The notes under the pieces are model-generated. The model saw nothing but the letters and a program-made list of their open reading frames with translations. It made no database searches and was not told the DNA's origin. From positions 2,046,001 to 2,110,000 of the forward strand of contig NZ_CP113913.1 in assembly GCF_029395355.1 (NCBI RefSeq): a stretch of 64,000 nt of DNA. Reading direction: 5' to 3'. The translations under genes and the position numbers were made by a program. Of the stretch, positions 43,462 to 48,312 are shown piece by piece (within the stretch, counting starts at the first letter, position 1; the number at the start of each line of letters is the position of its first letter). The stretch is from Bifidobacterium sp. ESL0800 (GTDB lineage: Bacteria; Actinomycetota; Actinomycetes; Actinomycetales; Bifidobacteriaceae).

Positions 43462-46158
43462 ATGAGCGGTAGGCGAGGCCAGGAACCAAGCAGCAGCGTA
43501 GCGACGGCCCCGGGAAAACTGTATATCGCCGGCGAATATGCGGTGGTCGAGCATGGCCATCCGGCCATCCTCATCGCCGTGAACCGTCTGTTGACCGCCC
43601 GCATCACCGAACACGACACTTCTTCCGCTGCAGCTCAACCGCAAACCTTCGGCGTCGACCCCGTCGGCCGCATCCATTCCGCAGGTCACCCCGAGGCGTC
43701 GGTGACCTGGCGGCGTCGCGCGGGACGTGCGGTGCCTGACGTGGAGCAGCCGGGCGCGGCATTCGTGCTTTCCGTCATCCATGCGGTCGAGGAACTGGCC
43801 CAGCAGCAGGGCCGTGATCTCAAGATCTACGACGTCAATATCGAAAGCGAACTGGACGACGCCTCCGGGCGCAAATATGGCTTGGGCTCGTCCGCCGCGG
43901 TGACGGTGGCCATGATGAAGGCGCTGACCGCGTTCTACGGCCTCGAGCTCGACCCGATGCAGCAATACAAACTGGCGTTCGTTTCGGCCAGCCGCGCCCA
44001 GAAGGTCGGCTCAGGCGGAGACTTGGCGGCGAGCCTTTTCGGCGGTTGCATCCGGTTTACTGCTGTCGACCGGCAGTGGGTCACCAACCGCTTGCAGGAC
44101 ACGGCGCTGAGCGATTTGATCACGATGCCTTGGCCGGGGTTGAGCATCGCGCGGCTCCGGGCATTCGGGCCTTCCAGCAGCTTGCGCCTGATGGTGGGAT
44201 GGACCGGCAACCCAGCGTCCACGCCTTCGTTGGTCGGCCATGTCCAGCAGCAAAGCGCCGCCGAACACGAGCGGCTGTATCAGGCCTTTTTGAGCGGCAG
44301 CGATGCCTGTGTCGACGCATTGGCCCAGGCGCTGGTCGCCGATGACGAGCAGGGCGTCATCGCGCACGTGCGCGAGGCCCGCAAGCTCTTGCAGACCCTT
44401 TCTTCGTTCACCGGAGTCATCATCGAGACCCCGGCCTTGCGTGCTCTGGTCGAGGTGGCCGAAAGCCATGGTGCCGCGGCGAAAAGCTCCGGCGCCGGCG
44501 GCGGCGATTGCGGCATTGCGATTGCCGGGCCGAACGCCGACAAAGCGGCGGTTACGCGCGGTTGGCAGGAGAAAAGCATCGTCCCGCTGGATTTGTCGGT
44601 GCACGCTCCGCAGGTCGAACTGGCCGAGTGGATGGGTGAGACCTCGGATTTCATGGCCGCGAGGTTTGCCGGAAATTTTTGTCAGAAAGCCGGGACCAGC
44701 CGCGCCGCCGGAAATGTCGGCAGGGAAGTCGGGACCAGCCGCGCCGCCGGAAATGTCGGCATGGAGGCACCGGCAGGTGAAACCACCGGTATCGTCGATT
44801 CGTTGACTGCTGATTCGTTCTCTGGTGATGTCGGCAGGCGCATGTTCGGTATGAATTCGCGGATTGCGGGGGCGAGTTCGAATCGCAAGGACGACCACGT
44901 GCGTCTCGCGCTCGCCGAGCATGGCGACGCGCAGCGCAACGCCTTTGATGATTTGGCTTTCATGCACCACAGCTTGGGCAGTGTCGATGTCAACGACGTC
45001 GATATGTCTACGAAAGTCTGCGGGACACGCTGGGATATGCCCTTCTATATCAACGCGATGACCGGCGGATCGGCCAAAACCGGTGCTATCAACGCCGCGT
45101 TTGCCCGTGTCGCCGCCGAAACGGGCATGGCCATGGCTTCCGGTTCCCAGCACGCCGCCATCCGCGACCCGGGGCTCGAGCCGACGTTCACCACGATTCG
45201 TAAGCACGATCCGTCCGGTTTCGTCTTTGCCAACGTCGGGCTTTCCGTCAGCGTTGAGCAGGCCCTGCACGCCGTCGAGATGATCGGCGCCGACGCTCTG
45301 CAGATTCACGTCAACGCCGCGCAGGAGCTGGTGATGCCCGAAGGCGCGCGCGATTTCGAGACGTGGCCGGCGCGTATCGCCGCCATCGTCAAGGCCTCGC
45401 CCGTGCCGGTGATGGTCAAGGAAGTCGGCTTCGGCATGAGCGTGCGAACCGTTCGGCAGCTTGCGCAGTTGGGGGTGCGTACCGTCGATGTCAGCGGAAA
45501 AGGCGGTACCGATTTCGCGCGCATTGAGAATGCCAGGCGGCAGGGCCACGAATACGGCTATATGGCCGGTTGGGGCCAGTCCACGGCATTGTGTCTGTTG
45601 GGATTATTGCCCGACATATGTAATACAACAAATAATGATAACGGCATTTGTGCGGCCGAATCGGATTTCGGCGATACGGCAAATAATAAGGCGAGACGCG
45701 GTACGAATGTTACGAGTTCTCGGGCTGATGACGCGAATGATGACGGATGCTCTCATGCGGCCAGTGCCGACTTGCGTGTTGATGGTGCTGGTAGCGTTGG
45801 CGGCATTGAGAGGGTTGACGGCGCCAAAAATGATACAGATTATCATGGTGCTGAAGGTGTTGCCGTGCTCGCTTCCGGCGGTGTGCGCAACCCGCTCGAC
45901 GTGGTGAAGGCGCTCGCGCTGGGAGCTCGAGCCGTCGGTGTTTCCGGCCATTTCCTGCAGGTGCTGAACGCTAGTGGGGCCGATGGCCTGGTTGCTGAAA
46001 TCAACAGCTGGAAGAGCCAGGTGCGCTCGCTGATGGCGCTGCTGGGCGCGAAAACCGTCGCCGATTTGCGGCGCACGGATTTGTTGGTCACCGGCAAAAC
46101 GGCCGAAGAAGCACGGTTGTTAGGCGTAGACCTGTCGGCGCTCGCGTGTCGCCTTTGA
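43462..46158 (+). CDS. Fused phosphomevalonate kinase - type 2 isopentenyl-diphosphate isomerase
   Basis: A single 898-residue frame. Residues 1-395 are a GHMP kinase (APGKLYIAGEYAVVEHGHPA; GLGSSAAV at 140-147; SSGAGGGDCG), the phosphomevalonate kinase pattern. Residues about 400-470 are a linker with a 13-residue tandem repeat (GTSRAAGNVG twice). From 474 (NRKDDHVRLAL) it is an FMN type 2 IDI: AMTGGSAKTG, SGSQHAAIRD, ALQIHVNAAQELVMPEG, VMVKEVGFGMS, VDVSGKGGTDFA, ASGGVRNPLDVV. Residues about 719-798 are a low-complexity insertion after GLLPDI. Acts in the mevalonate route to isoprenoids; no other pathway gene is in the window. Both active sites look complete. Confidence 0.92.
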   Translation: MSGRRGQEPSSSVATAPGKLYIAGEYAVVEHGHPAILIAVNRLLTARITEHDTSSAAAQPQTFGVDPVGRIHSAGHPEASVTWRRRAGRAVPDVEQPGAAFVLSVIHAVEELAQQQGRDLKIYDVNIESELDDASGRKYGLGSSAAVTVAMMKALTAFYGLELDPMQQYKLAFVSASRAQKVGSGGDLAASLFGGCIRFTAVDRQWVTNRLQDTALSDLITMPWPGLSIARLRAFGPSSSLRLMVGWTGNPASTPSLVGHVQQQSAAEHERLYQAFLSGSDACVDALAQALVADDEQGVIAHVREARKLLQTLSSFTGVIIETPALRALVEVAESHGAAAKSSGAGGGDCGIAIAGPNADKAAVTRGWQEKSIVPLDLSVHAPQVELAEWMGETSDFMAARFAGNFCQKAGTSRAAGNVGREVGTSRAAGNVGMEAPAGETTGIVDSLTADSFSGDVGRRMFGMNSRIAGASSNRKDDHVRLALAEHGDAQRNAFDDLAFMHHSLGSVDVNDVDMSTKVCGTRWDMPFYINAMTGGSAKTGAINAAFARVAAETGMAMASGSQHAAIRDPGLEPTFTTIRKHDPSGFVFANVGLSVSVEQALHAVEMIGADALQIHVNAAQELVMPEGARDFETWPARIAAIVKASPVPVMVKEVGFGMSVRTVRQLAQLGVRTVDVSGKGGTDFARIENARRQGHEYGYMAGWGQSTALCLLGLLPDICNTTNNDNGICAAESDFGDTANNKARRGTNVTSSRADDANDDGCSHAASADLRVDGAGSVGGIERVDGAKNDTDYHGAEGVAVLASGGVRNPLDVVKALALGARAVGVSGHFLQVLNASGADGLVAEINSWKSQVRSLMALLGAKTVADLRRTDLLVTGKTAEEARLLGVDLSALACRL

Positions 46159-46279
46159 GCAGCCGGCCGATGTGCCGGTGCCGGCGCGGCACGAATCGAT
46201 GGTCATTATGCCGCTCCGTTGTTTGCCAAAATGTAAATATATACGAAACCGGCTCCAGGCCATCCCGTTTTCGGTGCAT

Positions 46280-46453
46280 TTCGTGATTTTGAGGCCTCTT
46301 GGTGCACCAAGATGGCCTTTTTTGAAGGATTCATGGGTTATTTGCCGAATTTCCGGGTACTTGGTGCACCAAGTGGGCTATTTTTTGAGGAATGAGGGGG
46401 AATTTGTGATTTTTGTGGGTACTTGGTGCACCAAGAGGCCGCAAAATCACGAA
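46280..46453. repeat. Array of CTTGGTGCACCAAG palindromes, 62-base period
   Basis: The 14-base perfect palindrome occurs at 46298-46311, 46360-46373 and 46422-46435, exactly 62 bases apart. The bases between are related too (GGGTACTTGGTGCACCAAG). The outermost copies extend to 32-base arms (46280-46311 and 46422-46453) that are inverted repeats with one mismatch. Confidence 0.9.
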
Positions 46454-46488
46454 TTGCTGAATTCTGGTGGGTGGGCTTCAATAGAAGC

Positions 46489-47058
46489 ATGTTTCCTGCA
46501 TTTTTGAACGAAGACGCCGAAACCGTGGCGAAAGGGTTGCTCGGCTGCACGTTGGTGCGCCAAATCGACGGCGAGACGTTGGCTGTGCGCATCGTGGAAA
46601 CCGAGGCATACGACCAACTTGACCCCGCAAGCCACACCTTCCATGGCAAAAGCGAACGCAACCGCGCGATGTTCGGCCCGTCCGGGCACGCTTATATCTA
46701 TCTGGTCTACGGCACGAACCTGTGTATGAACGTCACCGCATTCGAGGAAGGATTCGGCGCAGGTGCGCTGATTCGCGCCGCCGAACCGGTGGATACTCGG
46801 ACTGTCGAAATCGTCGAAAAGCGTCGTGGCGGCAAACGTATCAAGGATTGCCTCAACGGCCCGGGCAAGATTTGCAAGTCGCTTGGCATCACCATGGATC
46901 TCTACGGCCACGACCTGCGCAAGCCGCCGCTGAAGCTGGAAACGGGCTCGCTGCGCCCCGGCGAACGCGTCGAGGCCACCCAGCGCGTCGGCATCACCAA
47001 AGCCAAGGATCGCCCGCGTCGTTTCGTCATCGCAGGCAACCTGTATCTTTCGCGCTGA
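46489..47058 (+). CDS. 3-methyladenine DNA glycosylase (AAG/Mpg family)
   Basis: 189 residues from ATG 46489; an upstream in-frame start at 46423 lies inside the repeat array and is less likely. Family motifs: LLGCTLVR, VETEAYDQLDPASHTFHG (with the catalytic Glu), NRAMFGPSGHAYIYLVYG, GPGKICKSLGIT. Removes alkylated bases in base-excision repair. The repeat array just upstream may hold its control elements. Confidence 0.94.
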   Translation: MFPAFLNEDAETVAKGLLGCTLVRQIDGETLAVRIVETEAYDQLDPASHTFHGKSERNRAMFGPSGHAYIYLVYGTNLCMNVTAFEEGFGAGALIRAAEPVDTRTVEIVEKRRGGKRIKDCLNGPGKICKSLGITMDLYGHDLRKPPLKLETGSLRPGERVEATQRVGITKAKDRPRRFVIAGNLYLSR

Positions 47059-47076
47059 GACGTCGGCTGTCGTCTG

Positions 47077-48312
47077 CTACATCAGCGCGACCACGATGAC
47101 GACGAGGTTCATCACGCTGGTGGCGGCCTCGATGCCGCCGACCTGCATGGCTTTCATACGCTTGTGACGCGGAAAGATGATGGCAATCAGCAGCAGTACG
47201 GCGGCGGCGATACCCCAAAGCAGACCGGTGAGCATAACGCCGTGCGGCAACGGCAATCCGGCGAAATCCTGCAACAGCGCAGGTGCGGCGAAACTCAGCG
47301 CGGCAAGTACGGCATGATAGGCGACCGAAAGCACGTAATAACCGGAATGGCCGTACTTGCGGAACATGGTTTTGACGAACACGACCGAAGCGTATTCGGT
47401 GAGGATGAAAGCAACTGCGGCCACGACGCCGGCTTTCGGCAGCAGTGGTGAGTCTAGGAAATACGGCGAAAAATACTGAAACGAATGCGGGGCCGCCATA
47501 GCAAGGTGAAGGCCGGATGGCGACAATCTTGACGCAAGGGTTTCGCCTGGGTTCGTCAGTACGAAGAAGTTCGAACCGAGCGAAGTGGCGAGCAAAGCCA
47601 TCCCTCCGGCGGCGGCGACGGAGACCGCGTTGCCCCAGAGCGTACGTTCACTGCGGCGCCAGGCAGCGAGGAAGGAAAGCAAAGCGAGAACGGCGTAGAC
47701 AGGAATCCACCACAGCAATTTCGGAGCTGAAACCAAAACGGGGATGCCGACGACGGCCGTTGCAATGAGGTAAGCGAGCGTGGGAGTGAGGTAGATATTT
47801 GAGCGGTGAGGTTTGCGTGAAGCGAGGGCAGGATTGGTGGCGGAGCCGGTGACGGCAGTAGCTGAGCGGCGCGCCTTGGTGTGGCGTGAGCATTGGATGG
47901 TGCGGTCTGAGCGTTGGATGGTGTGGTCTGAGCGTTGGGCGGTGTGGTCTGAGCGTTGGATGGTGCAACTTGAGCGTTGGGCGGTGCGGTCTGAAACGGA
48001 GGCTTGATCCGGATTATTTCTTGACGAGCCGGTTGCCGTCGAATTTGCGATATTGGCGTTGTTGAGCCTCTTGGCTTCTTCTCGGTGCTTCCGAGCGTCC
48101 TTGACCTCGTGCGAGCGGACGGCGAGCCAGCGGGCCGCGGAGAACTGGAAGCAATAGCACAGCGTCCATGCCGCCAGCAACCAGACATTGCGCCACGAGA
48201 CTCCGCCGATGAAGATGCCGCCGAGCGCGGGGAAGAGCGCCATGACCCACGCTCCGGGCTGGTCCGGCAGCCAGAGTTTTGCGACGTTCTTACGTTCTTT
48301 TGTCTCAATCAT
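47077..48312 (-). CDS. YwiC-like membrane protein with an insertion
   Basis: 411 residues from ATG 48312. YwiC-like opening: LWLPDQPGAWVMALFPALGG, then about ten membrane helices. Residues about 82-170 are a hydrophilic, non-conserved segment with a short tandem repeat (QRSDHTAQRSDHTIQRSDRT) inside what would be a loop. Function of the YwiC family is unknown. It converges on the glycosylase gene, 19 bases from its stop. Confidence 0.8.
   Translation of the reverse strand: MIETKERKNVAKLWLPDQPGAWVMALFPALGGIFIGGVSWRNVWLLAAWTLCYCFQFSAARWLAVRSHEVKDARKHREEAKRLNNANIANSTATGSSRNNPDQASVSDRTAQRSSCTIQRSDHTAQRSDHTIQRSDRTIQCSRHTKARRSATAVTGSATNPALASRKPHRSNIYLTPTLAYLIATAVVGIPVLVSAPKLLWWIPVYAVLALLSFLAAWRRSERTLWGNAVSVAAAGGMALLATSLGSNFFVLTNPGETLASRLSPSGLHLAMAAPHSFQYFSPYFLDSPLLPKAGVVAAVAFILTEYASVVFVKTMFRKYGHSGYYVLSVAYHAVLAALSFAAPALLQDFAGLPLPHGVMLTGLLWGIAAAVLLLIAIIFPRHKRMKAMQVGGIEAATSVMNLVVIVVALM

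Follow-up and report, generated by a model that had tools for sequence, protein, structure and literature searches.

The window analysed here is a 64,000-nucleotide stretch of the 2.25-Mb genome of Bifidobacterium sp. ESL0800 (labelled G000), and the element of interest lies in it between two genes. The upstream gene (43462..46158, forward strand), which is outside the element, is a single 898-aa frame uniting GHMP kinase domains with an FMN-dependent dehydrogenase domain; presumably, it is a mevalonate-pathway fusion. The downstream gene (46489..47058, forward strand) encodes a methylpurine-DNA glycosylase (PF02245) and is regarded as a neighbour and not as a specific target.

The element is an array of three units without assigned strand, each defined on the sequence as a core palindrome with 24 bp on either side: unit 1 (46274..46335), unit 2 (46336..46397) and unit 3 (46398..46459). 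All three cores (46298..46311, 46360..46373 and 46422..46435) are exact copies of CTTGGTGCACCAAG, and they are flanked by short A/T blocks, which in unit 1 occupy positions 46278-46280, 46287-46290, 46319-46322 and 46329-46331. The cores follow each other at start-to-start distances of 62 and 62 bp, as had been stated in the preliminary description, which placed three 14-bp palindromes with 62-bp spacing at 46280-46453. None of 100 shuffles contained at least three matches, and within the window itself no further copies were found at up to two mismatches. The inverted end arms reported at the same time are present at this locus (46276-46311 and 46422-46457; 36 nt, 94% complementary); across the family, however, arms are no more complementary to their own partners (0.378) than to arms of other loci (0.386; 80 units, z = -0.67). 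The proposal of a folded element was abandoned because the arms lack covariation. For the same reason, and because A/T blocks of either base lie on both sides, an intrinsic terminator was also rejected. An Rfam scan of window positions 45500-47500 gave only sub-threshold matches.

Occurrence of the arrays in the genome and in related species

A whole-genome search revealed 46 exact copies of CTTGGTGCACCAAG, while a reversed control pattern gave none. With up to three mismatches allowed, 136 matches were found in this genome vs 78 for the control, and thus near-miss copies are few. All 46 exact cores fall in 24 arrays, and a 25th array has a single core mismatch. A 15-bp form of the core with an extra central base, STTGGTGNCACCAAS (25 exact copies), often ends the arrays; when both forms are counted together, the genome contains 25 arrays with 79 units, and 19 of the 25 have three units (with up to four 14-mers per array). 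GTTGGTGCCACCAAG is frequent at the left end of arrays, as is its reverse complement at the right end. By ORF calling the arrays are intergenic, except that four overlap an ORF start as called with the longest start taken. Flanking genes are arranged in tandem at 17 arrays, divergently at 5 and convergently at 3, with one nuclease gene (see below) added by hand; before this addition the numbers were 19, 4 and 2, and codon usage is the probable cause of the gene having remained uncalled. Next to the array between gpsA and plsC, on its far side, there is a short minisatellite built of GAGGTGGGTGAGAT-like units (about G000:C1:1498424-1498579).

The neighbours of the arrays are diverse, mostly housekeeping genes, including those for thymidylate synthase, adenylosuccinate synthetase, secE-nusG, rimM-trmD, leuA, aconitase and trigger factor, which argues against regulation of a single pathway. 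The preliminary description had considered a binding array for a dimeric regulator of the glycosylase gene. Its specific half is not supported, as arrays also occur at 24 further sites next to genes that are unrelated and mainly of the housekeeping kind, and local regulation of the glycosylase gene is unlikely; the general half, a symmetric protein, is well supported by three properties described below: spacing on a 62-bp grid, a weak/strong code and purifying selection. Two observations had been named there as speaking against any such role. One was a palindrome that is frequent and randomly placed: it is frequent, but its placement is not random. The other was absence from close relatives with the same gene order, and here the picture is divided. 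At the glycosylase locus the same three-unit array is present in G117 and G120, and G121 has three CGCG-type units (one of them decayed), but in ten other genomes (G025, G118, G119, G015, G116, G115, G002, G004, G033 and G028) no array was found in the 450 bp upstream of the gene.

A relaxed tandem pattern was detected in 6 of 112 genomes of the genus, 5 of which are array-rich (forward matches: G000, 39; G115, 32; G117, 38; G120, 49; G121, 43; in the sixth, G116, there was 1). An order-wide scan with the relaxed pattern, covering 396 genomes (374 outside the genus), gave matches only in G000 and one other genome. This sole match beyond the genus (1/374) was judged to be due to chance, its first core being no palindrome, and the same verdict was reached for one lone CTTGGTGCACCAAG-type 14-mer in one of 22 genomes of the order. 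Among the fetched arrays, which were picked by pattern or synteny from the matches listed, the core is of the TGCA type in G000 and G117, occurs in four YGCR forms in G120, and is mostly CGCG in G115 and G121. The core therefore shifts as a set, from TGCA to CGCG, and G120 is the one species with a mixture.

Most fetched arrays of the relatives are flanked by the same genes as arrays of G000 (17/18 in G120, 7/11 in G115 and 1/1 in G116), and judging by the figures for G120 and G115, recent movement looks rare. Gaps without an array are in some cases short (29 bp at rimM-trmD in G119, 89 bp at dapB-MFS in G015) and in others longer (317 bp at leuA-DUF5701 in G015, 11.8 kb at dapB-MFS in G119). 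The last of these intervals (about G119:C1:1869778-1881552, approximately 11.8 kb) contains no nuclease match and is thus a possible hot spot of insertion. Three comparisons of filled and empty places revealed neither a clean insertion nor a target duplication; the whole gap had turned over. Opposite an array found only in G117, G000 carries a different inverted motif of AAAGTGCG/CGCACTTT (G000:C1:1983635-1983816).

No blastn match that would indicate a plasmid or phage origin was found in plasmids or phages. A loose scan of viral contigs returned 35 stretches, all judged to be chance matches: those with a 48-bp spacer, the scorable subset, reached at best -13.8 vs a minimum of 8.7 for the arrays' own spacers, and those without one were assessed by eye only. 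In the literature, chiefly open-access, the CTTGGTGCACCAAG 14-mer was not found in paper texts, and the CGCG-form 14-mer appears in 18 papers, none of which, among the matches listed, deals with such repeats by its title. Word searches, in which subscription journals are little covered, likewise gave no title on this array family among the matches listed, and the accessible part of a repeat survey (PMC12306157) does not mention Bifidobacterium.

Weak/strong code of the spacers and its conservation

The spacers between cores are 48 bp long in 50 of 55 cases. In the 48 distinct spacers, positions 9, 10, 19, 20, 30, 31 and 39 are A or T without exception, and at four of these (9, 10, 19 and 39) the A:T ratio is near 1:1; positions 18-20 and 29-31 lean to AWT. 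G or C occupies positions 4, 5, 44, 45 and 46 in roughly 90% of spacers or more. Counting the core's TT and AA along with the A/T blocks, there are six minor-groove positions in every 62 bp, and the 10.33-bp harmonic has a power of 81 vs a null maximum of 13 (2000 runs). The TpA step is rarer in the A/T blocks (0.088) than in A/T runs of 3-6 bases between genes (0.183). As all 48 spacers share one positional code, and spacers of CRISPR arrays are mutually unrelated, a CRISPR array was rejected.

Past the terminal cores the code persists for about 20 bp and then ends, which assigns to each core a symmetric site of approximately 54 bp. The code is repeated in the fetched arrays of G117 (55 spacers), G120 (34), G115 (21) and G121 (9), of which G117 is no independent sample, most of its arrays being orthologues of G000 arrays. 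Weak or strong pairing is thus fixed at given positions while the base itself is free, and there is no pairing between arms; this pattern is what would be expected if the DNA, as a double strand, were bent around a protein with two-fold symmetry.

Orthologous arrays of G000 and G117 were compared at the 19 of 25 G000 arrays that were usable, six being skipped for gaps or for lack of aligned flanks. The substitutions per site were 105/1555 in flanks, 115/1557 at non-code sites of the spacers and 32/480 at G/C positions, as opposed to 9/479 in block W8-11, 2/360 in block W18-20 and 5/863 in the core. Of the 11 changes in W blocks, 7 were exchanges between A and T, compared with 4 of 105 in the flanks (p = 2e-6). 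An earlier count without the gap and flank filter, which included one misaligned pair, had the same direction. The comparison of G000 with G120 (7/25 G000 arrays usable) gave 120/562 in flanks, 11/174 in W8-11, 2/132 in W18-20 and 17/309 in the core, and that of G117 with G120 (6/27 G117 arrays) gave 89/488, 12/151, 5/114 and 13/267, respectively. The core changed more toward G120 than between G000 and G117, as expected from its shift in core type. The core and A/T blocks are therefore kept between sibling species, and the remainder drifts at the flank rate. In none of the three genome pairs did the G/C positions show significant conservation beyond the flank, and G/C positions 3-6, enriched yet evolving at the flank rate, are unlikely to have a strict role.

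A nuclease-family gene bracketed by arrays

In G000, a single-copy gene of a nuclease family (325 aa; G000:C1:1341047-1342021) lies between two arrays 1.2 kb apart. Close homologues (E below 1e-100) were found in 4 of 112 genomes, i.e. G000, G117 (98% identity to the G000 protein), G120 and G121 (57% each), and all four belong to the five array-rich genomes (p = 8e-7, ignoring phylogeny). The best match in the other 108 genomes has E = 3e-35 (identity up to 38% among the matches listed), and at E up to 0.001 matches occur in 81 of 112 genomes of the genus, with up to seven in each. The gene is bracketed by arrays in 4/4 carriers, and in all of them it occupies the same position, dapB-MFS. The exception is G115, which is array-rich with no close homologue (best E 4e-20; a draft, 94% complete). 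In the available flanks of 26 loci of distant homologues no 62-bp arrays were found. The flanks of distant MTES_1575/DUF559-like homologues might carry other cognate repeats of different design; near one distant DUF559-type homologue in G059 (L176, about 633-684), three CGAACGTTCG palindromes lie 21 bp apart.

The nuclease alleles are of two types (G000/G117, 98% identical; G120/G121, 77%), with 56-57% identity across types, as opposed to the glycosylase, which is 88-92% identical in every pair of the same four genomes. Identity is 53% and 48% outside the nuclease domain vs 70% inside it, i.e. the outside diverges most. In the glycosylase tree, which has good support at only 2 of its 12 inner branches, G120 groups with G000 and G117 (98/97), whereas its nuclease groups with that of G121. 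As far as these sequences tell, the allele split follows the core type and not the glycosylase tree, and the placement of the G120 nuclease is in line with the many CG-bearing cores of this genome; the match of allele and core is imperfect, as G120 cores are a mix of four YGCR forms.

The relationships of the protein are distant. It matches REase_MTES_1575 and DUF559 below threshold (29.3 bits for MTES_1575, cut-off 38.2), NCBIfam gave no match, and the protein has no assigned DNA-binding motif. Residues E175, D208, E219, H225 and D234 do not vary among 12 homologues, and four of them (E175, D208, H225 and D234) were tentatively read by eye as an EDxHD/Vsr-type active site. Profile matches in the PDB include 3r3p, a mobile intron protein (E = 0.059) that we take to be I-Bth0305I, and 3hrl, endonuclease-like (0.49) and presumably a Vsr-like protein; between the two stand NADH dehydrogenase subunits and other unrelated proteins at 0.09 and up. 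Further weak matches were obtained to HNH ZorE2 of PADLOC (0.0006), an HNH profile of PHROG (0.00018) and PHROG 3339, a homing endonuclease (E = 0.0026). Sequence similarity to EDxHD or homing enzymes is thus weak. Vsr reads CTWGG, and the array half-site is CTTGG; this resemblance may be a coincidence.

Interpretation and alternatives

We estimate the probability at roughly 60% that the array is bound by a protein as double-stranded DNA, with the nuclease-family protein as the most likely partner, a link that is drawn across four related species with one exception (G115) and beside which the other DNA-binding family screened was that of Y1 transposases. A different wrapping or bending protein (a nucleoid protein, an Lrp-like octamer or a global regulator), with the nuclease gene as a passenger between arrays, seems rather unlikely, but it gains from the fact that the evidence for wrapping stands independently of the nuclease and from the arrays of G115. 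Moreover, three sites are bound and about 100 bp wrapped by the archaeal Ss-LrpB, according to the accessible text of PMC2995911 and PMC4046817, and three in-phase palindromic sites (with wrapping that is putative for the arrays) are indeed common to both. On the other hand, archaeal Lrp sites are reportedly two or three helical turns apart, as opposed to six in the arrays, and a passenger gene accounts neither for the linkage in 4/4 carriers nor for the co-variation of allele and core type. Purely selfish short repeats without a host function, mobilised or homed by a cognate nuclease, are improbable. Their patchy distribution among relatives, the shortness of some array-less gaps (rimM-trmD in G119, dapB-MFS in G015) and the arrays flanking the nuclease gene would agree with such repeats, but the shared neighbours of most G120 and G115 arrays, the longer gaps in G015 and G119, the lack of a clean insertion or target duplication in the three comparisons and the selection acting on arrays in place do not.

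Strong gyrase sites, similar to BIME-2 or the Mu site, appear very improbable. The E. coli BIME-2/gyrase sites resemble the arrays in being intergenic and repeated, and the E. coli gyrase motif described in the accessible text of PMC6379681 is symmetric, with periodic GC content and probably indirect readout. However, that motif is 130 bp long with a degenerate centre and a phase of 10.75 bp, and it reaches about 65 bp from the centre, while the arrays have a near-invariant 14-mer as their core and a footprint of about 54 bp, the code of terminal units ending about 27 bp from the centre. The phase of the arrays is 10.33 bp, although the harmonic test on a 62-bp unit cannot separate these two values, and a universal enzyme leaves the restriction of arrays to 6 of 112 genomes, i.e. 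to a few species, unexplained. An RNA element (tandem hairpins, terminators or processing sites) can practically be dismissed: the core could pair with itself and T runs follow some units, but arm covariation is absent, the interchange of A and T at block positions keeps no pairing or strand polarity, and arrays sit within gene clusters, e.g. rimM-trmD.

Among known systems, the arrays with their candidate partner resemble REP/REPIN sequences and RAYT in comprising dispersed intergenic palindromes and a single-copy cognate enzyme gene adjoining the repeats (here in 4/4 carriers), but the enzyme is a different, Vsr/EDxHD-like one, and the arrays have a six-turn grid and an A/T phase code. Membership in REP/RAYT was rejected, as there is neither covariation of hairpin arms nor a Y1 (HUH) transposase (PF01797 in 0/3 array genomes, G000, G117 and G120; the control gave matches in 5 of 14). 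Enzyme type and repeat type co-vary also in RAYT/REPIN (PMC3116915, accessible part). With the EDxHD homing endonuclease I-Bth0305I, whose dimer target is reported to be nearly 60 bp long (PMC3943268, accessible part), the array-linked protein may share active-site residues, going by its invariant E, D, E, H and D and its weak match to 3r3p, and the array unit of 62 bp is of similar length. Here, in contrast, dozens of intact target-like sites stand in tandem, and the gene is free-standing between arrays.

We infer that the nuclease-family protein binds the units and that DNA wraps around it. Each 62-bp unit would be a single long symmetric site for a dimer, in which the protein would read the individual bases of the 14-bp palindrome and, about 16 and 25.5 bp on either side of the centre, the narrow minor groove of the A/T blocks; over about 54 bp, the DNA would then have to curve around the protein. 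As the units are six helical turns apart, neighbouring dimers (typically three) would lie on one face of the DNA, where they probably bind cooperatively. The protein encoded at G000:C1:1341047-1342021, as the candidate binder, and the approximately 25 dispersed arrays may co-evolve like the RAYT transposase and REPINs, and the arrays flanking its gene would provide autoregulation. Continuous cutting is unlikely because the genome holds dozens of intact sites, and cutting, if any, would be conditional. For the cell, candidate roles are chromosome architecture, insulation or regulation; alternatively, the pair may simply persist selfishly.

A more specific proposal, which we advance tentatively and at somewhat less than even odds, is that a Vsr/EDxHD-type nuclease is, or has become, a protein that wraps DNA in a sequence-specific manner. 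Its dimers would occupy nucleosome-like 62-bp sites, grouped in threes at about 25 fixed positions between genes, its gene would lie embedded among its own arrays, and the site family and the protein would switch specificity together. If this is true, the wrapping nuclease and its arrays would constitute a bacterial repeat-partner system unrelated to RAYT/REPIN, i.e. a candidate repeat-enzyme partnership that arose separately. The two natural allele types and two sets of sites make its specificity and co-evolution testable. A near error-free natural weak/strong minor-groove code is rare and directly testable as well, and it occurs here in Bifidobacterium, a commensal genus of broad practical interest.
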